Below are positions 2,820 to 22,738 of a DNA stretch of 22,802 bases, one piece after another. Made by a program: the position numbers and the translations under genes. Source of the stretch: a virus; IMG/VR virus record IMGVR_UViG_3300010885_006450, positions 1 through 22,802 of that record, one strand, 5' to 3'. The notes beneath the pieces were generated by a model, which saw nothing but the letters and a program-made list of their open reading frames with translations, was not told the origin of the DNA and ran no database searches. Position 1 is the stretch's first letter. Each line of letters opens with the position of its first letter.

Positions 2820-2822
2820 CAA

Positions 2823-4583
2823 ATGGCACAAGTAAAAAGAGAATCAGCAAATAAAGAAGCAGACATATCTGGAGGTCCATTCCTAGCTAAAGTCATTGGG
2901 CATTTAGATCCTAGTTTCATGGGAGGACTCGAAGTCACACTATTAAAGAAAGACGGTAACAGTTTAGGAGATGCCGGACAAACTTACGGGGTTCGTTACG
3001 CTAGTCCATTTTTTGGATCAACTGCTTTTGAATTTCAAGGATCCAACAAAGACGATTTTAATGACAGCCAGAAAAGTTATGGTATGTGGTTTGTGCCTCC
3101 AGATGTTGGTGTAACAGTTATTATATTTTTTATAGATGGAGATCCTAGTCAAGGATACTGGATGGGTTGTGTTCCTGATAGATTTACCAATCACATGGTA
3201 CCTGCTATTGCAGGATCAGATGCTGTAGAATTTGCTGAAGGTGATGCTGAGTATTACGATGTTGGTACAGTTCCTGTAGCAGAAGTAAATCGTAGAGCTA
3301 ATGACCTTGAAGAAGGTATGGAAATAGACAAAATTCCTAAAGCAGTACATCCCTTCACAGATCATTTAAGAGAAGAAGGACTTCTTGCAGATGATGTTAG
3401 AGGAGTTTCAAAGAGTACCGCTCGTAGAAATGTACCTAGTAGTGTTTACGGAATTTCAACGCCCGGCCCGCTTGATCGTAGAGGCGGCGCCAAAAAATCT
3501 TTTATTGGCAAAGTACAAAGTCAAAGCCCAACACCTGTTCCTGTAAGTCGTCTAGGCGGCAGTCAATTTGTCATGGACGACGGCGACGACCGTTACCAAC
3601 GAAGAACTACAGCCAGTGAAGGTGGATACGATTATGCAGACACACTAGGAGGCGATAGTGGTGAACCTGCTATTCCTAAAGATGAATATGTAAGACTGCG
3701 TACACGAACAGGCCATCAAATTTTAATGCATTCTAGTGAAGATTTAATTTACATAGGTAACAGTAGAGGAACTAGCTGGATTGAAATGTCCAGCGATGGT
3801 AAAATTGATATTTTTGCCGAAGACAGTATCAGTATTCACACCAAGCAAGATTTTAATTTTTATGCTGATCGTGATTTTAATTTTGAAGCAGGAAGAAATA
3901 TCAATATGAAAGCTTCTGCTGTACACGAAACTGGTGGCGGAAACTTCCGTGTAGATACAGAAGCCAACACTAGATTTTTTGTCAAAGGTGATACAAAAAT
4001 TACCACAGAAGGTGAAGTACACATTGCTACATTAAAAGATAATCATATAACTTCTGTAATGAATAATAATTTTAAAAGCATTCTAAGCACCTATATTCAG
4101 TCAAGTTTAGACACTCATATGAAAGCAGGAACCAGCATTAATATTCAATCTGGTACAAGTATGGATATTAAATCCGGAGATGCTATGCAGGTAACTGCCG
4201 GAGGCGACGGTAGTTGGGGAGCTGCTAACTTGACATTCACGGGCGGAGCAATTAATCTTAATGGACCTGCTGCCCCTGATGCAGCAGATGCTACTAAATC
4301 GACAGCAGCAACACCTACACTGGCATTAGGTATCAATGGAAACATCGTAATCAATCCAGCAGCAGCTGAATGGGTCGGTGCAAGATACAACACAGAAACC
4401 CCGTTAGAAAGTATTATGTTTAGAATACCTATGCACGAACCTTGGCCTAATCATGAGAATTTAGATCCTCTATTAGTCAAACCTGATCTAACTGACAGAG
4501 AACAAGCAGGTGGTGGAGAAGACGGATTAGCAGCAGGCGGGGATGAAGGTGGTGGAGAAGACCCACCACCAGAGGAAGCATAA
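2823..4583 (+). CDS. 5: gp5-like baseplate spike (OB-fold plus beta-helix, no lysozyme domain)
   Basis: This 586-residue protein matches the VgrG/gp5 class that forms the trimeric membrane-piercing needle. Residues about 18-125 read as the OB-fold (FMGGLEVTLLKKDG, YGVRYASPFFG, YGMWFVPPDVGVTVIIFFID, YWMGCVPD). Residues 126-285 are a charged linker with short motifs such as VYGISTPGPLDRRGG. From about 289 (VRLRTRTGHQILMHSSEDL) the chain enters a beta-helix running to about 480. It has short repeating strands (KIDIFAEDSISIHT, DFNFYADRDFNFEAGRNI, SINIQSGTSMDIKSGD), as in the gp5 C-terminal prism. The glycoside hydrolase domain that T4 gp5 has between OB-fold and helix is absent. The end carries RIPMHEPWPNHENLDP and a Gly/Glu/Pro-rich acidic tail. 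ATG 2823 has a weak GGA six bases upstream and follows the hub stop by three bases. Confidence 0.88.
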   Translation: MAQVKRESANKEADISGGPFLAKVIGHLDPSFMGGLEVTLLKKDGNSLGDAGQTYGVRYASPFFGSTAFEFQGSNKDDFNDSQKSYGMWFVPPDVGVTVIIFFIDGDPSQGYWMGCVPDRFTNHMVPAIAGSDAVEFAEGDAEYYDVGTVPVAEVNRRANDLEEGMEIDKIPKAVHPFTDHLREEGLLADDVRGVSKSTARRNVPSSVYGISTPGPLDRRGGAKKSFIGKVQSQSPTPVPVSRLGGSQFVMDDGDDRYQRRTTASEGGYDYADTLGGDSGEPAIPKDEYVRLRTRTGHQILMHSSEDLIYIGNSRGTSWIEMSSDGKIDIFAEDSISIHTKQDFNFYADRDFNFEAGRNINMKASAVHETGGGNFRVDTEANTRFFVKGDTKITTEGEVHIATLKDNHITSVMNNNFKSILSTYIQSSLDTHMKAGTSINIQSGTSMDIKSGDAMQVTAGGDGSWGAANLTFTGGAINLNGPAAPDAADATKSTAATPTLALGINGNIVINPAAAEWVGARYNTETPLESIMFRIPMHEPWPNHENLDPLLVKPDLTDREQAGGGEDGLAAGGDEGGGEDPPPEEA

Positions 4584-8464: not shown

Positions 8465-8479
8465 AAGGTATAAGAAATG
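8465..8479 (+). promoter_or_regulatory. Ribosome binding site for the giant gene
   Basis: AAGG at 8465-8468 lies eight bases before ATG 8477, just after the gp6 stop at 8460-8462. It supports ATG 8477 as the start. The conserved-looking N-terminal segment begins only a few residues later. Confidence 0.55.
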
Positions 8480-11400
8480 GCAGATCAAATTTTCCCTCAA
8501 AGTGGACTTCCTATTAGAAGAACCGTTGACCTATTGCCTCAGGTATTTAAAACAGAGACAAATGATAAGTTTATGGCCGCTGTGGTCGACCCTCTGGTCC
8601 AACCTGGCGTACTACAAAAAACAACTGGTTATATAGGCCGTCGCTGGGGTAAAACGTATAACGGCTCAGACATCTATCTTGATGATGACACAACATTAAG
8701 AAGTAGATATCAACTAGAACCTGGAGTAGTCATTAGCAATGAACAAGGACAGGTTGAGAATTTTTACGACTACATTGATTTTAAAAACCAACTACAATTT
8801 TTTAACAACTATAATGAACGTGATGATAAAATTACCAGTCAAGAACATTACAGTTGGACACCACCTATTGAGTGGGACATGTTTGTTAACTTCCGCGAAT
8901 ACTATTGGGTTCCAAGCGGACCACCTAGTGTAAAAGTTTTAGGACAAGGTAATGATATTGTTAGCACGTACAGAGTAAGACAAGGCACAACGTCTACTTG
9001 GATTTTTTATCCTGATGGATTAACAAATAATCCTACAATCACTCTTTATAGAGGACAAACATATAAATTTAATGTTAACAGTCCTAGAGAAGGATTTTTT
9101 ATTAGAACTGCCTATGACACAGGTAGTTTAAAATATCGACCAGAACTTCCTTATATCCCAAACCAGTTAGCAGTCTATGACGGAAAATTATGGAGAGCAT
9201 TAACCTATGTTAAAGCCAGCGTTGACGGAACAATCACAGAAGGACCAGACTGGGCAATAGTTGAAGACAGTGTACAGACATCTAAGTTTGATTACTCTGC
9301 CGGCATTACTAATAACGGTGCAACTAATGGAACAGTTACATTTGAAGTTCCTTACGATGCACCCGATATCCTTTATTACCAAAGCGCAATTAATCCTGAT
9401 AGATTTGGTAGATTTTTAATTCAAGACATCGAAAGCAATACCAGCATTGATATTGATAAAGAAGTTGTAGGAAAAGAAACCTATACCAGTAGCAACGGAG
9501 TTGAATTTACCAACGGCCTGGTAGTAAGATTTGGGGGAAATGTTACTCCTAAAAAATACTCTAAGGATAATTGGTTAGTTGAAAAAGTTGGGCGTTCTAT
9601 TGAATTAATTAAATTCTCATCTTTAGAAGTTCCTATTATTACAAGTCAAGTTCCGGAAGTTATTTTTGATAACACCGGATTTGATACTGATCCCTTTGAT
9701 GATGCTACATCTTACCCAGGGGAAAAAGATTACATTACTATTTGCAGAGCCAGCATCGATAGCAATCCCTGGTCTAGATACAATCGCTGGTTCCACAAAG
9801 CTACACTAGAACAAGCCCATAAACTTAATGGCAGTGACTTTGAAGCCGGAGACAGCTTTAGAGCCAAGCGACCAATTATTGAGTTTAGACCTAACCTACA
9901 ATTATTCAATCACGGAAGTGTTGCAAAAACTCCTGTAGATTTTATTGATACATTTACCACAGATGTGTTTTCAACCATTGAAGGCAGTGAAGGCTACAGT
10001 ATCGACGGTGAGTTTTTATACAATGGAGCAAGAATATTAATAATTGCTGATACTGATACATTAGCAAATAATAAAATATATCAGGTTAGCTTTATTACGC
10101 ACAACAACCGTAAACAAATAGCATTAAAATCTGTAGATGATTCTGACTCTTTATTAGGTGAATGCGTTCTGGTAAGATCGGGAAATGCAAATAAAGGGTT
10201 AATGTATTACTTTAACGGAACAAACTGGGTAAGAAGTCAAGACAAAACTAAAGTAAATCAAACTCCGTTGTTTGACATCTTCGATGTTAACGGAGTTAGT
10301 TTTGGTAATTCAGATTCTTATCCTGTTAGCACATTCCTTGGAACTCCTATTTTAGAATACAAAGTTGGCAATAGCGTAGCCGATATTGAATTGGGTTTTA
10401 GTTTAGATTACCTAAACATAGATAATGTTGGTGATATACAATTTAAATTTAATCTTGATTCTGATTCGTATACCTATTCTTTAAATCAACAGACAGTTAC
10501 AGTTAATCTAAACACTGGATTTTATAGATTTAATCCGTTAGATGAGTTTGGAAATTCATGGACTACAACTGACTCTGAATATCTGCAACCAATATTAGAT
10601 AGTAAAATCATTACAGAATCAACAAATTCAGTAACACTGACAACGGTAAATTGGGATTTGTTTGATGACGCTAATTCTAAAATTTTATTTTATTTAAACG
10701 GTGTTCATTTTAAAGATGCCTACACAAGAACCGAAGGAACATTTACCTTTGTAAATAATTTTTCAGTTAATGATGTTCTGTCAATTAAAGTTTTTACAGA
10801 TCTAGATCCTGACCAAGGATACTACGCAATACCACACGGACTTGAAAAGAATCCTTTAAACACAGAATTAAAAACTTTTACACTAGGACAGGCAATTGAT
10901 CATCTTAGCCTAGCACTTGATGTTGATGATAGATTTACTGGAATTTATCCAGGTAATAGTAATCTTAGAAATCTAGACGGGTATCAAAATAAAGCCACAA
11001 GATTTTTAAAACATTCCGGCGTAGCACCATTAGCCATTGATGTTCTTTGTGATAAAAATACAAATCTTATTAAGTCTCTAAGATATAATTCTAGATTATA
11101 TTCAACATTTAAAAATGAATTTATTACAAGAATAACAGAAACACCGCCCAATGATAATATTGCAGACTTTGTAGATACTGTTATATCTAATATGGGCCTA
11201 GCCAAAGATATATCAAATCCGTTTGCCGGAACTGACATGATTGGCAGCGGTGCTCATACTGATATAGATTATACAGTTGAAGATGAAGGAATTAAAGTTT
11301 TTGCTTTAAGTCAAAAATTTAATTTAACAGATCTTAGTGATAAAGCAGTTTATGTTTACTTAAACGACGTTCAACTTATTAACGGAGCAGACTATACATT

Positions 11401-14400
11401 TGATGACACATTTGGTTTTGTAAGATTGTCAGTGACACTAACCGAAGGCGATTCTATCAAGATAAAAGAATATGTTTCTACTGCTTTTAATTATATTCCA
11501 TACACTCCTACTAAGTTAGGTTTGTATAAAAAATATCTTCCACAAAAATTCTTAGACGACACATTCCAGACTCCTAGAGATGTAATTCAAGGACATGATG
11601 GTAGTATCATTACTGCATTTGACGATTATAGAGATGATGCTATTTTAGAATTAGAGCGTAGAATCTATAACAATATCAAACAAGAATACGATCATGCATT
11701 GTTTGATATAGATGCAATATTTGGAGGTTATTATGGAAACTCTCTGTATACCAAAGAAGATTTAGATGCAATTGTTTCCCCTGACTTCCTACGTTGGGTA
11801 TCAAATACAGATATAGATTATACAAACAATGATCTATACTTTGATAGACAAAACAGTTTTACCTATACCTATAGTAACATGACAGACCCTACAGGTTTAA
11901 AAAATCTTCCAGGCTACTGGAGAGGTGCATATCTATGGTTCTATGACACTACCCGACCACATACTTGTCCTTGGGAAATGTTAGGATTTAGTGAAAAGCC
12001 CGTATGGTGGGAAAAAGAATACGGACCAGCCCCCTATACCAGCGGCAATTTAATTCTTTGGGAAGATATTAGTCAGGGTATTATTCGTCAAGGTCCACGT
12101 GCAGGCACTCACGATCGATATGCTAGAAAATCAATATTGAGTCATATTCCTGCCGATGGAGACGGTAAACTCTTAAGCCCGTTAGATTCTGGTCTAGCTA
12201 CAAACTATACACTGGTCAACGACAGGGGAGATTATAAATTAGGTGACATTAGCCCTTCAGAATTTGCTTGGAGAAGTAGCTCAGAATGGCCATTTTCTGT
12301 TGTAGTAGCATTATCTTTATTAAAGCCATTTGAATTTATTACTGACAGTTTTGATAAATCTAGAATGACTGTTAATAAATTAGGACAGACTGTTTTTAGT
12401 GAGACGGGCATATTTGTTAAACTTTCAGATATGAAAGTTCCTACAGCTAGCGGAACTAGAGTATCGGGATTAATATCTTTTATTTCTAGTTATATAAAAA
12501 GTAAAAATTTAGATCCCGAACAGCTAATCACACGCATTAACAATTTAGATGTTAAGATATCATCTAGAATTTCTGGATTTGTAGATCAAACAGAACAAAA
12601 GTATTTGTTAGACAGTAAAAATCCTAGCTCAACTTCTAGTAGCATCTATGTTCCTAATGAAAATTACAACATTATTTTTAATGTCAGTTCTCCTATTGCC
12701 AGTCTTGTTTACAGCGGAGTATTAATTGAAAAACTAGCAGAAGGTTGGAAAGTAAGAGGATACGATAATCAATTATCATATTTTAATTATTTTGAATCTA
12801 TTGCTAGTAGCACTGATCCGTTAACCAGTGTTGGCGGAGTTAGCGCAAAATTTTATGATTGGGCTCCGGATAAAGTTTATAACAACGGAGACATTGTTAG
12901 AAATCAAAACGTCTACTATCGTGCATTGAAATCTCATACTAGTGTAGGTACATTTGATAAAGCACTGTGGAAGACACTGGCCAAACTACCTGTAGTTGGC
13001 GGTATTGATGCTTACTTTAGAAAGACTTTTGACAAACTTAAAACTAAAAAGATGTACTATGGTACAGTTTTAACAACTGTACAAGATGTTGTAGATTTTA
13101 TGTTGGGCTACGAAGCCTATCTAAAATTTATAGGATTTAATTTTGATCGTTATAATTCTGAAACCCAAACAGCATACAACTGGCAGACTAGTTGTAAAGA
13201 ATTCTTATTCTGGACTAAACATAACTGGGCAGTTGGCAGTTTATTAACACTAAGCCCTAGTGCTCAAGAAATTAACGTAAACATATTAAGTGGTGTTCCT
13301 GATAATTTATTTGATAGTTTTTATGACTACGAAATTTTTAAAAGCGACGGAACTCCGTTGTTACCAATTTTCTTAAATGTTAAGAGAGATTTTCAAAAGG
13401 TAGCTGTTAGTACAGTAAATTCCAATGACGGAATTTATTTCTTAAAACTTAACTATGTTTTAAAAGAACATGTTGTATTATTTGACGACCGCACAGTGTT
13501 TAATGATGTAGTCTATGACAAGACTACAGGCTACCGTCAAGAGCGTATTAAGAGTCGTGGCTTCCGTACAGTTGACTGGGACGGTGATTATACAAGTCCG
13601 GGATTCTTGTTTGACAATGTAAACATCCAACAATGGGGTCCGTACACTGATTATCGACTAGGAGATATTGTATCTTATAAGTCTTACAATTGGGTAAGCA
13701 TACAAAATCAACAAGGGTCAGAAACGTTTAATGATACTGTTTGGTCAAAGTTAGATACTGATCCTAAGAAAGGCCTAGTTGCTAATTTTGATTATAGAAT
13801 TAATCAATTCCAAGACTACTATGAATCTGATGCAGACGGATTAGGTTCTAGCCAACGCGACCTAAGTCGACATGTTATTGGATATCAAACTAGAGAATAT
13901 CTACAGGCCATGGCCGAAGATAATGTTAGTCAGTTTAGAATTTATCAAGGATTTATTAGAGAAAAAGGAACAGCCAATTCTGTTACTAAGGTATTTGAAA
14001 AATTAAGCAGAACTAATAATGGCAGTATTGAACTTAATGAAGAATGGGCGTTCCGTGTTGGAAGGTTTGGAGGCACGGATCAATCAACAGAAACAGAATT
14101 TAGAATTCATAAAAACGATTTAAAATTAAATCCGCAACCTATCTTATTGGCCCCGGTTGATACAGCTACTGATATATTAGATCTTTATCTTCGTGTGCCA
14201 GTGAATGATTTTACAATTGCAACATCTCCTTTTAACAAAGATATAAACCCTGTTAAAAAATATACGTTAACTCCTAGAATTGCTGGATATGTTAATGTAC
14301 TAGATGTTGATTACATTCTTCCTACAAGAGACGATATATTAAAACTTGATATTACTAAGTTTGAAGAAAATACACAAGTCTGGATTACCTTTGAAGAAAA

Positions 14401-17400
14401 TTCTTGGACTGTATTAAGATACAATATTGAAAAATTGTTGTTTTTAATGGATTTAAATGTTAACAAGACCAGAGTAGAACTTGTGGTCAACAGACCACAC
14501 GGTCTAAGCGTTGGAGACATTTTTGGTATTAGAAATGTACAGAATCTTCAAGGCTTCTATAAAATCACAGAAGTCCCTAATGTAAATGCCTTGGCGTTTC
14601 AGATATCTAAAGATGCTAAAGAACCTAAGTGGGAGCCAAGCACAGTAATAAATCTTGAATTGTTTAATGAGGCAAGATTCTCGTCTTATCAAAGTTTAGA
14701 TCTTGATAAAGTAGCTGCTCTTACAGACGGCTCAAAGCTATGGATTGACAAAAATGAATCTAACAAATGGGAAGTTGTAGAAAAACAAAGTCAGTTTAAA
14801 GTTACTGATCTTGCAGAATATGGAATCTCATTGCCAAAGAATAATGGTAAATCTGTAGTATATTCTGACGCACTAGCACAGATAATATCGTCAATGCCTG
14901 GCAGTAATATGGTAGTGGCTTATCTTGAAAGAGCTGAAGGTCTTAAGCCGTTCCAAACATTGTTAAAACCAAATAACATAAGCAATGCAGCTGATAAGGT
15001 GTTTGGTGAAACATTGACAATTAGTCCCGACGGCCGTTGGCTTGCAGTAGGGTCACCAAATGCTGCTGGCGTTAAATCGGATTATCAAGATATTTTTGCC
15101 CCAGCTGCTTCATATAGTAAAGGTAATATTGTATTATACCAAGGCAGATTATGGAGAGCTAAAATAGACCTTGCCGGAGATGGCAGCACAATAAATCTAG
15201 CCAATGATAATTGGGAAACAGCAACAATAGTTACAGCCAACGATCAAGGTACAAATAATGGCTACCAAGCTCAGGGAGCAGTTACCATGTACGAATGGAG
15301 CGGCCAAAGCTGGGTAGAAAAATTTACCTTTGTTAGCCCTCGCCAAGACGCCAATGAAAAATTTGGAGAAAAAATTGTACTTGGGGTAGATGCTGGAAAT
15401 TATTACATGGCAATTTCTGCTCCAGGCGCTCTTAACGAAACCGGCAGAGTCTATCTTTATAAGTATGCTCCTATAACAGAAGATACAACCCAAACAATTA
15501 CATTATCTGTTACAGTTGGTCCAGCCCAGGGTGCAGAAACAGGTTACAAGTATTACATTGACGAACAATATCATCCTAACTTAACATTAGAAGTTGGCAA
15601 TACCTATATATTTGATCAAACTGAGTTGAGTAATGTTTATTTTCCAAACCCAATTGAAGGAACAGTTACAAATAGACATCCTATTAATTTTAGCTCAGAT
15701 GACATCAACGGTCCATTGGGCAGCGGTACATTATACACAACAGGAGTTACCTATTATCTAGATAATAGACCAGTTACTCAGGCTCAGTACATAGCTGGGT
15801 TTGATGTAGCTACAACTAGATATGTTAAAGTAGTAGTCACAGAGTTAACAGCTGGTATTCTTTATTACTTCTCTTCAGCATTGCCGCTGACTATGGGTAA
15901 TTCGATGATTAAAAAATATCCAACCATCGCTAAAGAATGGCAAATTGTTCAGAATCAAAATTACAAAGGTGTTTACAATGCTGCTGGAGCCACAACTTAT
16001 GAGGTTGGTTCAATAGTATGGTATGATAATGCACTATGGCAGTCTTTAGAAGATCAAATAGGTGACGGAAGTACAATCACTATTAATTCAGGTCAATGGC
16101 AAAAATTAGATCCTGTAAGTACACAGAGTTCGTTGCCATCTAACCCTTCTATAAATGACGTTGATGATTCTACAGTAATATTAGCAGCTGGATTGTTGTC
16201 AGCAGATCAGTCATCAGAGTTGGTTAAAAAAGGAGATCGATTTGGATCAAGCCTAGCTATGAATAGAGATGGATCTATTCTAGTTATAGGTGCGCCGTTA
16301 AGTGACGGTCAATATTTTACAAACTACAAAGGCGAATGGAATGCATATCAAGAATATGCACAAGGAGATACAGTTAAGCGTAATGGATCTTATTATCAAC
16401 TAGGATCTAATGGAGTTGATTCTTCTTATAGAAGTTATGGAGAAACTCCTTCACCATCTGGTACTCCGTGGAGTTTGATAACTGTTGAATCTACAACCTC
16501 TTCCGGTAAAGTTTATATCTATAAGAAAGATTCCTACGGATTATATAATTTAATACAAACAATTAATGCAGGAAGTTTACCAGACATTAATGATTTACCT
16601 ATAAACGAAACAGTAGCTTCGGGCGATCTGTTTGGGTTTTCTATGGACGTAGATTATTCAGGAACAACATTAGTTGTATCAAGTCCTCAGGCAGATATTG
16701 GTCTACAAAATCAAGGTGCAGTTTATGTCTTTAAATTTGATACAGATTCTACTATTCCTGAATATAGACTAAAACAAAAATTACAGAGTTACGAAACTTA
16801 TAACAATGAGTTATTTGGATTTGGACTATCAATTAGCGAAAGAACAGAACGAATTGTTGTAGGAGCAAAAAATACTCCCTACATGCTGCCTACTTTGTTC
16901 GATATTGGCAACGGAACTAGATTTGACGGTGGCCGTACAACTTTCTCAGAAGATCAAGGCTATCCTGGACAGGTATATGTATTTGAATTGAAAGATCAAA
17001 TCTATATTTTATCTGAGAAATTGCAAGCCGAGTTAGGAGACAATGAAGGTTTTGGTTATGCATTAGATGCTACTGCTTCTGCTATTGTAACTGGTTCTCC
17101 CGATTATATGATAGCCGGAGAAAAAGTTGGCCGAACAAGGATCTTTAGAAAAGACCCCACAAAGAATAGTTTTACCACAGTAGGTGAAGAAACTGATCTA
17201 GTCAATATTGATTTGGTAAAGAGTATTTCTTTATATGACGATGAAAAAAATGTTAAACTAGCAGACGTTGATATTATTGACACAAATAAATTTAAGATTC
17301 TAGGATCAGCTGAAGAAGAAATTAAATTTAAAACACCATATGATCCAGCAACGTATACTAACGGAACAGATCAAGTTATTGTGGATGCAGACCAAGCATG

Positions 17401-20400
17401 GTTTGAAAAGAACATTGGCGCACTATGGTGGGATTTAAGTAAAGCAAAATGGGTATCGCATGAACAGGGAGATATTGCCTACCGATCAGGTATGTGGAAT
17501 CAATTGGCACCCGGCGCTTCTATAGACATATATGAATGGGTAGAAAGTTCAGTGTCTCCAACAGAATGGAATAAACTTGCAGATACGGTTGACGGATTAG
17601 CTAATAACATATCAGGACAGCCTGCATACGCTAACGCTGTCTACAGCATCAAGCGATTTACTAATTCTGCAACTGGCCTTCAGTCAGGCACAAAATATTA
17701 TTTCTGGGTAAAAAATAAAACAGTTATTCCTCAAGGTGTTCCAAGTAGAAAAATTTCTGCGGCTAATATTGTATCTTCGATAGTAAATCCTATTGGTGAA
17801 GGTGTACCAATTATTGCAATTATTGACAAGGATAAATTTCTTGCTTATAATTTTGATTCAGTAATCAAAGGAAATTCTGCGCTGCTTAATATTGAATACT
17901 ATAAAGAGGAAAGAATTCCAAATGTCATCCATACAGAATATCAATTGCTAACAGAAGGACAAGCATCTAGCCTACCTAGCGAAGCGTTAGAACAAAAATG
18001 GATAGACAGTTTAGTAGGATTTAATCAATCAGGGAACCCAGTTCCAGATCCAACATTACGCCCTAAACAAAAATACGGACTAGCATTTAGACCAATACAG
18101 ACTATTTTTGTAAACAGGGCAACAGCTTTAAAAATTGTCATAGATCGAATTAATTCTATACTAACAACTAAACCATTTGGTGATTTAATTGATTTTGAGT
18201 ATCTTAACAAAATAGATCCTCTTCCTAGTCCTTCTTTAAATTTATATGATGTATCTATTGATACCTACCCAGAATTATTAGAAGTAGGTATTGTAAGGGT
18301 AAAACCTGCTAGCCTATCTGCAAATGTTGTAGACGGAGTAATTGATACAATTGATGTTATAGATTCTGGATTTGGTTATAGAACAGTGCCGCCGATAATC
18401 ATCACCGGCGATGGTACTAATGCAAAAGCAGAAGCTGTTTTAGATAATCAAGGTCGTATAAGTTCTGTTACTGTGTTACAAAAAGGAAGAAAATATACAA
18501 CTGCAGATGTTTCTGTGCGTAGTTTCTCTGTACTAGTAAAATCAGATTCTACATTTAAAAATTACTGGAGTATATATTATTGGGATAATGTACGAGAAGG
18601 ATTCTTTAAATCCAAAGTACAGGCATATAATACTACCAACTATTGGAACTATGTAGATTGGTATTCGATTGGATTTAATTCTACAACTAGAATTGTTAGA
18701 GAAATAGCAGATATTTTCCAAGAAATAAATTATACATTTGAAATAGGTGATGTAGTTAGAGTTAAAGAATATGCCAACGGTGGCTGGGCATTACTACAAA
18801 GAGTAGTAGACGGAACCGGAAATATTTTATCTAACTATGAGTTAATAGGAAGACAGAACGGAACTATTGAAATAGCCAAAGACCTATACAACGTAAAAGT
18901 TTATGACTATGTTGCTACATATGACGAAGAAGTCTACGACAATCAGCCAACTAGAGAATTAAGAAATATTTTAAATGCTGTAAAGTATAATATTTTTATT
19001 GACGATTTAGATGCTGAATGGAATAAATTATTCTTCACCAGTATGAAATATGTATTCTCTGAACAATTGTATGTTGACTGGGCTTTTAAAACTAGCTTCT
19101 TAAATGCTGTGCATAATGTCGGCGATCTAGATCAACGTCCAAACTACAAGAACGATAACCTATCTAGTTTCCAACAATATCTTGAAGAAGTAAAACCGTT
19201 CAGAACTACTATTAGAGAATATACAAGTAGATACACAGATATTGATCATCAAGGAGCAGCTATAACTGACTTTGATGTGCCTCCTAAATATGACAAGGAA
19301 AATAGACAGGTGTTACCTGTGTTGTCTAATTCTGAAGAATTAAACACATATCCTTATAAGTGGTGGACAGATAATAATGGTTACGAAATAATAGATATAA
19401 AATTATCTAATCAAGGCGGTGACTATAAAACTCCTCCTAAGGTTTACATTACCGGAAACGGCACAGGTGCAACTGCACAGGCCTATATATCTAACGGTAA
19501 AGTATCTGGAATTAAAATGTTGACCACTGGGTCTGGTTATACTACGGCTGCTGTTAGTTTAATTGGAGGTAATGCTTCATCGACAAACATTGCCCAAGCA
19601 TCTCCTATACTAGGTAACGGTAAAGTACGATCATTTAATCTAGCCTTGCGATTCGATAGAATAACCAAGGACGGATCTTATTCAAACTATCAGTATGAAC
19701 AAACTTTTACCGCTGACGGATTTACTGCAATATTTGATTTAAATTATCCTCCTACAAGAGATAAAACTAAAATATCTGTAATAATTAACAGCGAAATAAT
19801 ATTAGATAGTGACTATTCTTTAACATTCTATACACTAGAGTCTGATACTTACGATCTGTTAAGAGGAAAATTAAGATTAAATTCACTTCCACCTGCAGGC
19901 AATGTTATTACAATTTACTATGAAAAAGATGATGCTGTTCTAGATGCAGTTGACAGAATTAACAAGTATTATAGCCCAACATCAGGCATGATAGGTAAAG
20001 AAATAAATCAACTTATGACTGGAATCGACTTTGGTGGTGTACAGATTCAAGGTACTACATTTGATGTCAGCGGCGGGTGGGATGCTCTTCCTTGGTTTAC
20101 TGACACATGGGACAGTGTAGAATCTAACAATGATTTCCATTATATTTCAGACGGTAGTACAGCTTATGTGACTCTTCCTGAAGCTCCTGCATTAGGACAA
20201 AGAATTTCTATATACCTAAAGCGTGTAGGTGATGGGATATTGCGTAGCATTGATACATTAGATTCTGCTGGAGCCCCAAGGGTTGTATTTGATCCAGGTG
20301 TTCCAGTTCCAGAAACAGTTCGTATAGATGATCCTAGTTTTGTTGTTTTCCCAGACGGATCTACAAACTGGGACTCAACAATAATACTAAATCCTCATGC

Positions 20401-22738
20401 CCAGATGCCAACATTTATTGGCGACGGTGTAACTAAGAATGTTGAAATTGGTCAATTTATCACAGTCAATCCCGGAGATACTTTAATATTTAGGCCTTTC
20501 GACAGCGATGGTACAGTTAACATCACTGATATTAATATTATTGATACAAATCTTTCTGGAGGAAGCCTCAGTGCTGTTAGTGGTGCTTATGTGACAGCTA
20601 CAGGAACAATGGCTGAAGATATCAGCATTGACGGTGGAAAATTTATTGGACCCGATCAAGTTCCTGCACCAGAGGAAAACATCCCTGGGCAAGTTCTTGA
20701 AAGTGTTAGTATCAAAGTTTTTCATTCTGTACAAACAGGAGCAACACCGTTGCAGTCTACAATTGTCAATGGTAACGGAATTACTAAAAACTTTAAAATT
20801 GGCCTAGATGTATTAGAATCTGAATCTGTAATGGTTTATGTAGATAAAATTAAATCTAGTACTATTGACTTAGATGGTAGCACAATAACCTATACAATTG
20901 ATTACAATTCTAACGAAGTGGTATTTATGAATGCACCTGCTAAAGGCAGTGTAGTTGAAATAATATCTATTGGTATTGGCGGAGTTGCATTATTAGATTA
21001 TCAAGAATTTGAAGCCGACGGCGAGACTTCAAACTTCTTAACTAAGGCAAATTATGTTGACACTGCTACAGTACTAGTTACTGTAGATGGTGTAGAAGTT
21101 GATGCATTGTTTGTCAATAGTACAGATGTAACAGATATTTCTGGAAAAACATTAATTCAATTTGCTAACCGTCCGGCTCGAAGACAGATTGTAAAAATTG
21201 TTTGCCTAGGAGCAGCTACAGATGTTGATTCCGGACAACAAGCAGTTGTAAGAGTAAATCAACAGGTTGTTATTTTTGATGGAAGCACACTAAGCTATGA
21301 TCTTGACAAGTTTGTAAACTTACAAAGAGCTAGTGCTACGGGATCAGTCCTAGTAGAAGTTAACGGACTTAAATTAACAGGACCAGAAACTGAATTTGTT
21401 GTATATGACGGAAGCAATAATGTTATAAACATTTTAAAAGATCCGTTGCAGCCTACAAATACAGCTACCCAACAAAATATTGAAGTCTTTGTTAACAACG
21501 AACAAAAACGATATATCTTAGATTATGTGTATGACGGTAATAATAATACTGTAACAGTATCTACAGAAGTGTTAACCGTTGGTGATGAGATTAAAATTGT
21601 CATTGATGTAAACAGTCAATATTCTTTTGAAAATAATAATATTGTGTTTGCCGGGACAACTTTTGTTGAAAATGACAGTACTATGACCTTGCAAGAATCG
21701 GATCAAATTACTGTGACCTGGTTCAGCGAGTACCCAAGCATGAATATCATCAGCGATGAATATGCCGGAGGAAAATCTAGATACCAGTTATCTAGAGGAC
21801 CAGTTAGTGCAAGTTATATTTGGGTATACGTAAACGGACAACGATTAACACAAGAAAAAGATTACGAAGTTTCAATCCCTAGGAACCTTGTATATCTACA
21901 ACAGCCAACATTATTAACTGATACAATCAAAATTGTGCAGTTTGGAAATTATGTAAGAAGACAAAGTCTAGGATTTGAAGTCTTTAAAGATATGCTAAAC
22001 ATACATCATTTTAAACGCTTTAGTATTGACAAAGCTGTAACATTGGTTAACGATTTATACTACTATGATCAAGAAATTACGTTAACTGATGCATCTAATT
22101 TGTTTGATCCTATTCCTTCTAGAAATATTCCAGGCACAGTTTATATCAACGGTGAACGTATAGATTACTATGTTAAAAATGAAAATGTTTTATCTCAACT
22201 AAGAAGAGGAAGTTCTGGAACATCTATTGCTGAAATGTATGCAGCCGGTACTCCTGCGGTTGATGTTAGCCGAGTTGAAAGTTTACCCTATAATGAAGAA
22301 CAGGAAAGATTAGATTTTGTCAGCGATGGCAGTAGTTTATTAGTAGGCCCATTATCGTATGTTCCTCTAATTAGTGAAAAAACATGGACTAGAACTACAA
22401 TCCCAACAGGGTTTGATAGTTGCGATCAAATTGAAGTTTTTGTTGCAGGAAAAAGATTGCGCAAAGATTCTGTTACAATTTATGATCAAACTTTAAACAT
22501 AACAAGTCCGCAGGCAGACGTTGAAGTTGAGCCAGAGTTTACTGTTGATGGAACTAATCCGTACATTAGATTAACTACTACAGTTCCTGCAGGAACACGC
22601 ATCACAATTATAAGAAAACTAGGAAAAGTTTGGTATGACCGAGGAGAAAGTTCAGCAAGTTCTGGTGTAACTCTGCTTAAGAATTCAGGAACAATACCCG
22701 AATTTTTAAAACAAAAGAGCACCGAGCTGCCTGAATAA
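8477..22738 (+). CDS. Giant modular baseplate/tail-fibre protein in the gp7 position
   Basis: One frame of 4753 codons (about 520 kDa) fills 63% of the window; T4 gp7, its positional counterpart, has 1032 residues. I recognise blocks shared by very large marine myovirus structural proteins: SGLPIRRTVDLLPQVF and GRRWGKTYNGSDIYLDDDTT near the N-terminus, NPWSRYNRWFHKATLEQAH (about 431-449), VIQGHDGS (about 1036), KWIDSLVGFNQSGNPVPDPT (about 3175) and ERIDYYVKNENVLSQLRRGS (about 4559). In order it holds a split cupredoxin-like domain (165-319), two fibre-like beta modules (about 717-1002), two aromatic modules (1460-1505, 1720-1761), a six-blade FG-GAP-like propeller with insertions (2176-2893), two glycine-rich repeats (about 3284-3350, 3637-3698), a helical block (about 3510-3586) and a C-terminal string of beta modules (about 3741-4717). 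No signal peptide or membrane segment is visible, and I count only seven cysteines. It probably joins wedge and host-binding roles. Homology to T4 gp7 is not shown; it is inferred from position. Confidence 0.75.
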   Translation: MADQIFPQSGLPIRRTVDLLPQVFKTETNDKFMAAVVDPLVQPGVLQKTTGYIGRRWGKTYNGSDIYLDDDTTLRSRYQLEPGVVISNEQGQVENFYDYIDFKNQLQFFNNYNERDDKITSQEHYSWTPPIEWDMFVNFREYYWVPSGPPSVKVLGQGNDIVSTYRVRQGTTSTWIFYPDGLTNNPTITLYRGQTYKFNVNSPREGFFIRTAYDTGSLKYRPELPYIPNQLAVYDGKLWRALTYVKASVDGTITEGPDWAIVEDSVQTSKFDYSAGITNNGATNGTVTFEVPYDAPDILYYQSAINPDRFGRFLIQDIESNTSIDIDKEVVGKETYTSSNGVEFTNGLVVRFGGNVTPKKYSKDNWLVEKVGRSIELIKFSSLEVPIITSQVPEVIFDNTGFDTDPFDDATSYPGEKDYITICRASIDSNPWSRYNRWFHKATLEQAHKLNGSDFEAGDSFRAKRPIIEFRPNLQLFNHGSVAKTPVDFIDTFTTDVFSTIEGSEGYSIDGEFLYNGARILIIADTDTLANNKIYQVSFITHNNRKQIALKSVDDSDSLLGECVLVRSGNANKGLMYYFNGTNWVRSQDKTKVNQTPLFDIFDVNGVSFGNSDSYPVSTFLGTPILEYKVGNSVADIELGFSLDYLNIDNVGDIQFKFNLDSDSYTYSLNQQTVTVNLNTGFYRFNPLDEFGNSWTTTDSEYLQPILDSKIITESTNSVTLTTVNWDLFDDANSKILFYLNGVHFKDAYTRTEGTFTFVNNFSVNDVLSIKVFTDLDPDQGYYAIPHGLEKNPLNTELKTFTLGQAIDHLSLALDVDDRFTGIYPGNSNLRNLDGYQNKATRFLKHSGVAPLAIDVLCDKNTNLIKSLRYNSRLYSTFKNEFITRITETPPNDNIADFVDTVISNMGLAKDISNPFAGTDMIGSGAHTDIDYTVEDEGIKVFALSQKFNLTDLSDKAVYVYLNDVQLINGADYTFDDTFGFVRLSVTLTEGDSIKIKEYVSTAFNYIPYTPTKLGLYKKYLPQKFLDDTFQTPRDVIQGHDGSIITAFDDYRDDAILELERRIYNNIKQEYDHALFDIDAIFGGYYGNSLYTKEDLDAIVSPDFLRWVSNTDIDYTNNDLYFDRQNSFTYTYSNMTDPTGLKNLPGYWRGAYLWFYDTTRPHTCPWEMLGFSEKPVWWEKEYGPAPYTSGNLILWEDISQGIIRQGPRAGTHDRYARKSILSHIPADGDGKLLSPLDSGLATNYTLVNDRGDYKLGDISPSEFAWRSSSEWPFSVVVALSLLKPFEFITDSFDKSRMTVNKLGQTVFSETGIFVKLSDMKVPTASGTRVSGLISFISSYIKSKNLDPEQLITRINNLDVKISSRISGFVDQTEQKYLLDSKNPSSTSSSIYVPNENYNIIFNVSSPIASLVYSGVLIEKLAEGWKVRGYDNQLSYFNYFESIASSTDPLTSVGGVSAKFYDWAPDKVYNNGDIVRNQNVYYRALKSHTSVGTFDKALWKTLAKLPVVGGIDAYFRKTFDKLKTKKMYYGTVLTTVQDVVDFMLGYEAYLKFIGFNFDRYNSETQTAYNWQTSCKEFLFWTKHNWAVGSLLTLSPSAQEINVNILSGVPDNLFDSFYDYEIFKSDGTPLLPIFLNVKRDFQKVAVSTVNSNDGIYFLKLNYVLKEHVVLFDDRTVFNDVVYDKTTGYRQERIKSRGFRTVDWDGDYTSPGFLFDNVNIQQWGPYTDYRLGDIVSYKSYNWVSIQNQQGSETFNDTVWSKLDTDPKKGLVANFDYRINQFQDYYESDADGLGSSQRDLSRHVIGYQTREYLQAMAEDNVSQFRIYQGFIREKGTANSVTKVFEKLSRTNNGSIELNEEWAFRVGRFGGTDQSTETEFRIHKNDLKLNPQPILLAPVDTATDILDLYLRVPVNDFTIATSPFNKDINPVKKYTLTPRIAGYVNVLDVDYILPTRDDILKLDITKFEENTQVWITFEENSWTVLRYNIEKLLFLMDLNVNKTRVELVVNRPHGLSVGDIFGIRNVQNLQGFYKITEVPNVNALAFQISKDAKEPKWEPSTVINLELFNEARFSSYQSLDLDKVAALTDGSKLWIDKNESNKWEVVEKQSQFKVTDLAEYGISLPKNNGKSVVYSDALAQIISSMPGSNMVVAYLERAEGLKPFQTLLKPNNISNAADKVFGETLTISPDGRWLAVGSPNAAGVKSDYQDIFAPAASYSKGNIVLYQGRLWRAKIDLAGDGSTINLANDNWETATIVTANDQGTNNGYQAQGAVTMYEWSGQSWVEKFTFVSPRQDANEKFGEKIVLGVDAGNYYMAISAPGALNETGRVYLYKYAPITEDTTQTITLSVTVGPAQGAETGYKYYIDEQYHPNLTLEVGNTYIFDQTELSNVYFPNPIEGTVTNRHPINFSSDDINGPLGSGTLYTTGVTYYLDNRPVTQAQYIAGFDVATTRYVKVVVTELTAGILYYFSSALPLTMGNSMIKKYPTIAKEWQIVQNQNYKGVYNAAGATTYEVGSIVWYDNALWQSLEDQIGDGSTITINSGQWQKLDPVSTQSSLPSNPSINDVDDSTVILAAGLLSADQSSELVKKGDRFGSSLAMNRDGSILVIGAPLSDGQYFTNYKGEWNAYQEYAQGDTVKRNGSYYQLGSNGVDSSYRSYGETPSPSGTPWSLITVESTTSSGKVYIYKKDSYGLYNLIQTINAGSLPDINDLPINETVASGDLFGFSMDVDYSGTTLVVSSPQADIGLQNQGAVYVFKFDTDSTIPEYRLKQKLQSYETYNNELFGFGLSISERTERIVVGAKNTPYMLPTLFDIGNGTRFDGGRTTFSEDQGYPGQVYVFELKDQIYILSEKLQAELGDNEGFGYALDATASAIVTGSPDYMIAGEKVGRTRIFRKDPTKNSFTTVGEETDLVNIDLVKSISLYDDEKNVKLADVDIIDTNKFKILGSAEEEIKFKTPYDPATYTNGTDQVIVDADQAWFEKNIGALWWDLSKAKWVSHEQGDIAYRSGMWNQLAPGASIDIYEWVESSVSPTEWNKLADTVDGLANNISGQPAYANAVYSIKRFTNSATGLQSGTKYYFWVKNKTVIPQGVPSRKISAANIVSSIVNPIGEGVPIIAIIDKDKFLAYNFDSVIKGNSALLNIEYYKEERIPNVIHTEYQLLTEGQASSLPSEALEQKWIDSLVGFNQSGNPVPDPTLRPKQKYGLAFRPIQTIFVNRATALKIVIDRINSILTTKPFGDLIDFEYLNKIDPLPSPSLNLYDVSIDTYPELLEVGIVRVKPASLSANVVDGVIDTIDVIDSGFGYRTVPPIIITGDGTNAKAEAVLDNQGRISSVTVLQKGRKYTTADVSVRSFSVLVKSDSTFKNYWSIYYWDNVREGFFKSKVQAYNTTNYWNYVDWYSIGFNSTTRIVREIADIFQEINYTFEIGDVVRVKEYANGGWALLQRVVDGTGNILSNYELIGRQNGTIEIAKDLYNVKVYDYVATYDEEVYDNQPTRELRNILNAVKYNIFIDDLDAEWNKLFFTSMKYVFSEQLYVDWAFKTSFLNAVHNVGDLDQRPNYKNDNLSSFQQYLEEVKPFRTTIREYTSRYTDIDHQGAAITDFDVPPKYDKENRQVLPVLSNSEELNTYPYKWWTDNNGYEIIDIKLSNQGGDYKTPPKVYITGNGTGATAQAYISNGKVSGIKMLTTGSGYTTAAVSLIGGNASSTNIAQASPILGNGKVRSFNLALRFDRITKDGSYSNYQYEQTFTADGFTAIFDLNYPPTRDKTKISVIINSEIILDSDYSLTFYTLESDTYDLLRGKLRLNSLPPAGNVITIYYEKDDAVLDAVDRINKYYSPTSGMIGKEINQLMTGIDFGGVQIQGTTFDVSGGWDALPWFTDTWDSVESNNDFHYISDGSTAYVTLPEAPALGQRISIYLKRVGDGILRSIDTLDSAGAPRVVFDPGVPVPETVRIDDPSFVVFPDGSTNWDSTIILNPHAQMPTFIGDGVTKNVEIGQFITVNPGDTLIFRPFDSDGTVNITDINIIDTNLSGGSLSAVSGAYVTATGTMAEDISIDGGKFIGPDQVPAPEENIPGQVLESVSIKVFHSVQTGATPLQSTIVNGNGITKNFKIGLDVLESESVMVYVDKIKSSTIDLDGSTITYTIDYNSNEVVFMNAPAKGSVVEIISIGIGGVALLDYQEFEADGETSNFLTKANYVDTATVLVTVDGVEVDALFVNSTDVTDISGKTLIQFANRPARRQIVKIVCLGAATDVDSGQQAVVRVNQQVVIFDGSTLSYDLDKFVNLQRASATGSVLVEVNGLKLTGPETEFVVYDGSNNVINILKDPLQPTNTATQQNIEVFVNNEQKRYILDYVYDGNNNTVTVSTEVLTVGDEIKIVIDVNSQYSFENNNIVFAGTTFVENDSTMTLQESDQITVTWFSEYPSMNIISDEYAGGKSRYQLSRGPVSASYIWVYVNGQRLTQEKDYEVSIPRNLVYLQQPTLLTDTIKIVQFGNYVRRQSLGFEVFKDMLNIHHFKRFSIDKAVTLVNDLYYYDQEITLTDASNLFDPIPSRNIPGTVYINGERIDYYVKNENVLSQLRRGSSGTSIAEMYAAGTPAVDVSRVESLPYNEEQERLDFVSDGSSLLVGPLSYVPLISEKTWTRTTIPTGFDSCDQIEVFVAGKRLRKDSVTIYDQTLNITSPQADVEVEPEFTVDGTNPYIRLTTTVPAGTRITIIRKLGKVWYDRGESSASSGVTLLKNSGTIPEFLKQKSTELPE
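8969..9433 (+). other. Split cupredoxin-like domain in the giant protein (residues about 165-319)
   Basis: The first half reads PTITLYRGQTYKFNVNSPRE (about 186-205), then FFIRTAYDTG. The second half reads YSAGITNNGATNGTVTFEVP (about 273-292), then DAPDILYYQSAINPDRFGRF. These are the strand patterns of the cupredoxin-like domains frequent in marine phage structural proteins. Between the halves sits an aromatic module (226-264). The His and Cys ligands usual in copper-binding relatives are not seen at the expected places, so a structural role is likelier. Confidence 0.45.
9152..9268 (+). repeat. CBM5/12-like aromatic module 1 (residues 226-264)
   Basis: The segment NQLAVYDGKLWRALTYVKAS, ending in GPDWAIVED, matches a six-fold recurring pattern in this protein: polar residue, V/I-x-Y/N, G/N-x-x-aromatic-x-A/S, a variable loop, then a Trp near the end. 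This resembles short chitin/polysaccharide-binding modules of families 5 and 12. It is inserted inside the split cupredoxin-like domain. Confidence 0.4.
12854..12991 (+). repeat. CBM5/12-like aromatic module 2 (residues 1460-1505)
   Basis: YDWAPDKVYNNGDIVRNQNV followed by YYRALKSHTSVG and ALWKTL gives the full pattern: Y-x-x-G-D-I-V, an aromatic pair, and a closing Trp about 25 residues later. This is among the best matches to a family 5/12-type module in the window. Confidence 0.5.
13634..13759 (+). repeat. CBM5/12-like aromatic module 3 (residues 1720-1761)
   Basis: WGPYTDYRLGDIVSYKSYNW, VSIQNQQGSETF and TVWSKL show the same order of Y-x-x-G-D-I-V, an aromatic residue at the W position, a 10-15 residue loop and a closing Trp. 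It lies about 215 residues after module 2, outside the propeller. Confidence 0.5.
15110..15232 (+). repeat. CBM5/12-like aromatic module 4, inside propeller blade 1 (residues 2212-2252)
   Basis: SYSKGNIVLYQGRLWRAKID, DGSTINLANDNWETA. It interrupts blade 1 between GSPNAAG and QGAVTMYEW. GRLWRA here echoes GKLWRA of module 1. Confidence 0.5.
15494..15910 (+). other. Second cupredoxin-like domain, between propeller blades 2 and 3 (residues about 2340-2478)
   Basis: The order is YKYYIDEQYHPNLTLEVGNT, YIFDQTELSNV, NRHPINFSSDD, TTGVTYYLDN, TRYVKVVVTELTAGILYYFS and a final MGNSM. This follows the marine-phage cupredoxin-like pattern (ligand-like HP after the FDQ strand, G-V-T turn, LYY strand, M-G end). 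The usual C-x(n)-H before the final Met-Gly is replaced by SSALPLTMG, so one ligand-like His remains but a complete copper site does not. Confidence 0.45.
15998..16117 (+). repeat. CBM5/12-like aromatic module 5 (residues 2508-2547)
   Basis: YEVGSIVWYDNALWQSLEDQ, DGSTITINSGQWQKLDP. It shares the DGSTI-x-(7-8)-W core with module 4, which suggests a recent duplication between the two. It lies between the second cupredoxin-like domain and blade 3. Confidence 0.5.
16325..16489 (+). repeat. CBM5/12-like aromatic module 6, inside propeller blade 3 (residues 2617-2671)
   Basis: YKGEWNAYQEYAQGDTVKRN, GSYYQLGSNG and GTPWSLITVE. It interrupts blade 3 between GAPLSDG and SGKVYIYKK, the same loop used in blade 1. 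The loop before the closing Trp is longer than in the other modules. Confidence 0.5.
18326..18524 (+). repeat. Glycine-rich GYxxxP repeat, copy 1 (residues about 3284-3350)
   Basis: IDVIDSGFGYRTVPPIIITG, DGTNAKAEAVLDNQGRISSV, then LQKGRKYTTADVSV. It matches copy 2 about 290 residues later in the order G-x-x-Y-x-x-x-P-x-V/I-x-I-T-G-x-G-T-x-A-x-A. The motif looks like a small beta-rich repeat of phage tail proteins. Confidence 0.55.
19385..19570 (+). repeat. Glycine-rich GYxxxP repeat, copy 2 (residues about 3637-3698)
   Basis: IDIKLSNQGGDYKTPPKVYI, TGNGTGATAQAYISNGKVSG, then MLTTGSGYTTAAVSLIGG. The second half of each copy (V-x-x-x-x-G-x-x-Y-T) restates the start of the first, so each copy is itself nearly a tandem pair. 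Confidence 0.55.
19696..22625 (+). repeat. C-terminal string of fibre-like beta modules (residues about 3741-4717)
   Basis: Degenerate units of about 60-100 residues recur. Each has a start such as F-x-A-D-G or V-x-x-G-x-(S/T)-x-x-F, a middle strand of the type V-x-V-(N/D)-G-x-x-(L/V), and an end of the type P-A-x-G-x-x-(V/I)-x-I. Examples are TADGFTAIFDLN with PPAGNVITIYYE, VMVYVDK with APAKGSVVEIIS, VLVTVDGVEV with RPARRQIVKIVC, VLVEVNGLKLTG, IWVYVNGQRLTQEKDYEV, and IEVFVAGKRLRKD with VPAGTRITIIRK. Two similar units lie far upstream near residues 717-774 and 939-1002. Such units are typical of extended phage fibres and support a rod-like C-terminal region. Confidence 0.5.

Follow-up and report, generated by a model that had tools for sequence, protein, structure and literature searches.

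What is a β-propeller doing in the middle of a giant phage structural protein, and why do its loops carry additional small domains? The question is raised by a virus record of 22.8 kb from IMG/VR, analyzed over its whole length (22,802 nucleotides; hereafter, the window). The window ends at a 14.3-kb gene (8477..22738, + strand, as are all features below) encoding a giant virion structural protein of 4753 amino acids, which matches phrog_10938 and holds the propeller in its middle.

Results

The Giant Gene and Its Neighborhood

The genes of the window are arranged in the order gp53-like, virion protein, gp5-like spike, gp25, gp6-like, and giant, with the giant gene directly 3′ of the gp6-like baseplate wedge gene. 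Both this gene order and the placement of the giant after gp6 recur in most jumbo phages sampled from the RaK2/121Q, GAP32/CBB, PA5oct, and Atu_ph07 types. In Salicola phage SCTP-2 (L007), the giant homologue does not follow gp6 but is found ~95 kb from it, at 133–136 kb of the record. The PA5oct homologue, gp355, is flagged for ESI-MS/MS in its record, indicating detection in the virion. Given the gene order after gp6 and the PA5oct flag, we treated the giant as a baseplate-cluster virion structural protein, with the baseplate as its presumed exact location.

Two more specific annotations were considered. The position after gp6 would fit T4 gp7, and a profile–profile comparison with that protein found nothing (hhalign probability of 0.1 for both the whole protein and the core). 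The “baseplate wedge” match to phrog_438 covers only a GGxGY/GFGYxxxP-type repeat at residues 3279–3352 (18311–18532) and, being confined to the repeat, was discarded as evidence; this annotation is unreliable for the giants of this family. Solved-structure sequence searches with the backbone of the giant returned nothing useful.

A Seven-Bladed FG-GAP Propeller

Residues 2105–2904 of the giant are, in the predicted structure, a closed seven-bladed FG-GAP propeller. In Pfam searches, FG-GAP_2 (PF14312) scored above its cutoff in the window and was present in 48/48 relatives. We modeled residues 2066–2965 with AlphaFold2 using an alignment with 47 relatives, which gave a pTM of 0.73 and pLDDT mostly above 90 in the blades; confidence was lowest in a cupredoxin-like insert, a linker, and the C-terminal end. 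The strand order in the model gives seven four-stranded blades. An earlier note, made from the letters alone, had numbered six blades in a propeller at 15002–17155 (residues 2176–2893). The FG-GAP blades and the closed disc agree with that reading; its count fell short by one because it missed blade 1 (residues 2105–2166, 14789..14974), which lies upstream of its start, consists of model strands 62–65, 70–75, 80–87, and 90–98 with pLDDT mostly above 90, and is conserved in relatives. The later blades, described there as compact, are fairly so from the fifth (16613..16810, the best PF14312 stretch) to the seventh (17042..17188), all three being defined in the AlphaFold2 model, except that the sixth (16811..17041) has a long B–C loop of 25–30 residues.

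The best match among solved structures was the integrin αL headpiece (VIA-align Z 25.9, rmsd 3.0 over 360 residues), spanning residues 40–831 of the model on residues 1–591 of the chain; the headpiece alignment overall covers model residues 40–836. The headpieces of integrins αL, αM, αX, αV, and α5 all scored Z 23–26 at ~3 Å over 350–380 residues. Besides integrins, the fold matches were nonenzymatic propellers, and those among viral predicted structures included giant-virus FG-GAP proteins, uncultured Caudovirales proteins, and an Atu_ph07 “hemagglutinin.” A module-free homologue (L091) was modeled with a pTM of 0.71 and a mean pLDDT of only 66, and its best match was integrin αM (Z 34.7 over 353 residues). 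Across the two models and the module-free homologues, the predicted propeller closes and its modules can be removed without loss of the blades. Neither of the two outcomes that the earlier note had set against its own reading, an unclosed fold or modules integral to the blades, was found.

The resemblance to the integrin α subunit (αI integrins such as αL and αM) extends from the seven-bladed fold (VIA Z 24–35) and the FG-GAP signatures to the register, with model residue 40 falling on integrin residue 1, and to the presence of an extra domain in an inter-blade D–A loop. Unlike integrins, the giant lacks DxDxDG calcium loops, its A–B loops reading SPDGRW, NRDGSI, DYSGTT, SERTER, and the like. 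Integrin α carries a MIDAS I domain between blades 2 and 3 as well as thigh and calf domains; for the giant, Pfam gave no VWA match. The inserts of the propeller are CBM-like and sit at other blades, and the propeller itself lies within a phage structural protein. We claim kinship for the fold and the repeat family only.

Modules in Equivalent Loops

Three CBM5/12-like modules, M1–M3, interrupt the disc. M1 (residues 2196–2264, 15062..15268; PF02839) is found in the B–C loop of blade 2, between strands A and B (FGETLTISPDGRWLAVGSP, 14990..15061; AlphaFold2 model and module profile) and strands C and D (QGAVTMYEW..SWVEKFTF, 15269..15346; AlphaFold2 model). M3 (residues 2613–2672, 16313..16492; module profile) occupies the corresponding loop of blade 4, following strands A and B (FGSSLAMNRDGSILVIGAP, 16223..16312; PF14312 and AlphaFold2 model) and preceding strands C and D (GKVYIYKK..LYNLIQTI, 16493..16612; AlphaFold2 model). 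As both modules separate strands B and C, in the model strands and in comparison with module-free homologues, the insertion sites are topologically equivalent. The earlier proposal of equivalent sites is thus confirmed, M1 lying between the AVGSP B strand and the QGAVTMYEW C strand and M3 between the IGAP B strand and GKVYIYKK.

That note had also placed a cupredoxin-like domain and a further aromatic module between two blades. M2 (residues 2494–2552, 15956..16132; module profile) does lie there, in the D–A loop between blades 3 and 4, but the cupredoxin-like domain (residues 2336–2484, 15482..15928) interrupts the C–D hairpin of blade 3, between strands A to C (residues 2291–2335, 15347..15481; AlphaFold2 model) and strand D (KEWQIVQN, 15929..15955; model strand 421–425). 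The domain is found only in the close clade of the window, and in relatives without it, strand C runs directly into strand D. It had no match in Pfam or in the solved-structure sequence search, and its AlphaFold2 pLDDT is low.

In propellers, the B–C and D–A loops lie on one face and the A–B and C–D loops on the other, the former being the ligand face in integrins. With M1 and M3 in B–C loops and M2 in a D–A loop, the three modules should share a face and project from it, an assignment resting on propeller topology, by which the cupredoxin-like domain in the C–D hairpin would be on the opposite face. Placing all modules on one face, as was first suggested, fits M1–M3 but is too strong a statement, given the opposite position of the cupredoxin-like insert and the use of both faces by the inserts of relatives. 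Two relatives, L080 and L092, have inserts of 367 and 411 amino acids near blade 3; they align poorly there and were left out of the face assignment.

PF02839 (CBM5/12) matched the whole giant with an E-value of 3.6e-15, 56.1 bits over the cutoff, while the modules alone scored 21.3 (M1), 15.1 (M2), and 14.0 bits (M3), all below the 26.2 cutoff. The module profile nevertheless grouped all three as CBM5/12-like, and the same profile finds chitinases, tail spikes, and fibers; in Pfam, CBM_5_12 was present in 46/48 relatives. CBM5/12 domains bind chitin with an exposed aromatic pair positioned after the Y-x-A strand. In the alignment columns this chitinase-type pair is missing from M1–M3: AKYWT of 2rts aligns with ALENV-type residues, and the aromatics are not conserved.

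Further CBM5/12-like modules are found elsewhere in the giant, at 9134–9262 (residues 220–262) and 12857–12940 (residues 1461–1488), the first apparently inside another cupredoxin-like stretch. In Vibrio phage 2.275.O (L013), the annotation places a CBM5/12 domain in the gp6-like baseplate wedge (18001–21864) as well. In a solved-structure profile search, the same module family was found in contractile-tail proteins (tail spike 8fqc, All3316 7b5h, and F2-pyocin fiber 25vf), the carriers being spikes, fibers, and a small tail protein. Since CBM5/12-like modules occur elsewhere in the giant as well as in the spikes and fibers of other contractile systems, they may serve generally as structural building blocks.

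The Propeller as an Insertion

Homologues align with the giant before approximately residue 1890 and again from approximately residue 2880. On the 5′ side, the insertion is flanked by a backbone hairpin (GSKLWID..WEVVEKQ, 14729..14788; model strands 22–27 and 34–38) that could be matched by eye to GKVWIDSINSDNDWAVAVV in PA5oct and SVWVFRDMDNNWNIYEL in CBB. On the 3′ side, conserved backbone (17189..18196) shows 25–33% identity to the homologues in PA5oct, Phosso, Atu_ph07, CBB, RaK2, and Vibrio 2.275.O. PA5oct crosses the propeller site, from GKVWIDSINSDNDWAVAVV to DSKLFENAYFYD, in about 15–20 residues (upstream flank matched by eye), and in CBB-type phages the site is taken up by a short stretch of unrelated sequence. 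In Phosso (L005, ~1740–3175) and Atu_ph07 (L006, ~1650–3170), the aligned flanks enclose 1400–1500 amino acids of other repeats, dominated by the GGxGYxxxPxVxV type. The phrog_10938 giants of RaK2/121Q, GAP32/CBB, PA5oct, and Atu_ph07 share the gene position and an alignable backbone on either side but have no propeller. When records of cultured phages were searched for the propeller, no carrier was found. Because the propeller is missing from homologues in cultured jumbo phages whose flanks are clearly similar, it is an insertion in the giant, and the long repeat tracts at the same interval in Phosso and Atu_ph07 suggest a general hotspot for insertions.

Module Turnover among Relatives

A scan of IMG/VR with the backbone returned 80 loci, from which we aligned 49 nonredundant propeller regions. 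All 49 align over seven blades, and the blades are kept across about 24–75% identity. Around them, modules come and go at the loops in the comparison of related phages that the earlier note had proposed as a check. L091 has none of M1–M3, L047 has M1 only, L054 and L063 have M1 and M3 without M2, and L084, L092, and L095 have M1 and M2 without M3; M2 is also missing in L053, and in L067 a further hairpin carries one more M3-like module. Depending on the relative, the C–D hairpin of blade 3 is empty or contains one of at least four different domains, and two regions far apart on the tree (L022 and L033) share the same domain in this hairpin at 44% identity. The tree requires several independent changes of module state, with uncertainty at long branches, L091 above all.

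The turnover extends to modules within modules. A module of ~53 amino acids (GRTYTI..LGTTDF..G..F.AT..GTGTGTV) is found inside M2 in L060, L069, L070, L071, and L082 and recurs in a loop of the seventh blade (L023) and near the distal end of the protein, around residue 4766 (L028); by eye, it is also nested inside M1 (L033) and M3 (L072). It thus seems to be mobile within the giant, CBM-like modules included. When close relatives are compared, identity is 46–59% for M1 and M3 and mostly 52–80% for the blades, a faster divergence of the modules that can also be explained by relaxed constraint.

Discussion

The reading we prefer, to which we assign a probability of about one-half, is that the region is an integrin-α-like seven-bladed FG-GAP display platform in a jumbo-myovirus baseplate-cluster giant, with loops swapping modules, most likely for host adsorption. 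What computation shows is a seven-bladed fold that was inserted as a whole, with equivalent loop sites and modules that turn over; the adhesive role is drawn by analogy with CBM-decorated siphophages (PMC6669499) and the propeller of phi11 Gp45 (PMC4901313). In siphophages, the CBMs of evolved Dit proteins and of the neck and tail of 936 phages vary between relatives and are regarded as adsorption aids, and two of them, as GFP fusions, bound the phage-specific host (PMC6669499). There, too, CBMs sit on structural virion proteins; the phages and scaffolds differ, with no integrin-like propeller, and binding has been demonstrated for some of the siphophage CBMs. The receptor-binding protein Gp45 of phi11 is a five-bladed homotrimeric β-propeller whose cavity could accommodate GlcNAc; it is likewise a propeller in a baseplate host-recognition device, and the abstract of that study describes no loop-inserted modules (PMC4901313). 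By these analogies, the propeller is probably a changeable adhesive head, and the earlier idea that M1–M3 form a multivalent binding head is plausible.

Under the preferred reading, the propeller would be a stable disc serving as a display platform, whose surface loops accept small β modules, CBM5/12-like ones in the B–C and D–A loops and other domains in the C–D hairpin of blade 3. The ~53-amino-acid module nests within the CBM-like modules, and lineages gain, lose, and swap modules. Most likely, the disc would present the modules at the tail tip, where many copies would bind polymers of the host surface avidly during adsorption and could readily change these contacts. More tentatively, an uncultured jumbo-phage lineage may have independently built an integrin-style adhesion head, with the ligand-face loops as a plug-in array for exchangeable, nested binding modules and the module content setting the surfaces bound.

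The main rival, which we consider possible but doubtful, is that the propeller and its modules are a structural spacer, bracing wedges or docking tail fibers in an oversized baseplate, and that the turnover is near-neutral accretion. Such a role would suit an insertion hotspot that in Atu_ph07 and Phosso holds ~1400–1500 amino acids of unrelated repeats, a giant family full of small β modules, and the failure to keep the sugar-contacting aromatics. The blades are kept while the modules turn over, however, fitting a scaffold with replaceable surface parts, and M1 and M3 evolve faster than this scaffold. The partner could instead be a phage protein, the propeller face being a docking ring for a separate receptor-binding fiber and the modules tuning the contact. 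The integrin propeller, with a similar closure and fold, binds its β subunit via the same face, and PA5oct has a gp10-like fiber gene three genes after the giant, but the module composition is more variable than would be expected at a fixed interface between proteins, and we regard this arrangement as unlikely. Enzymatic propellers occur on phage tailspikes, and a sialidase- or lyase-like propeller degrading or sensing glycans would have that precedent; the fold matches to integrins and nonenzymatic propellers, together with the lack of any glycosidase family match in Pfam, make it very improbable here.

Neither FG-GAP propellers nor phage CBMs are new in themselves. No paper came up in literature searches pairing FG-GAP with baseplates or jumbo phages, and two jumbo-phage reviews contain none of the terms propeller, integrin, or FG-GAP; the searches found no description of an FG-GAP propeller combined with CBMs, with recurrent and nested loop insertion, in a baseplate-cluster protein of a jumbo phage, which is weak evidence for novelty, as the literature searched covers subscription papers sparsely. 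That phage tails are decorated with binding modules is known. A conserved propeller whose loops are recurrent landing sites for modules, including modules inside modules, is a natural example of a plug-in display scaffold, and it leads to a prediction, open to testing, of how attachment is diversified in jumbo phages.
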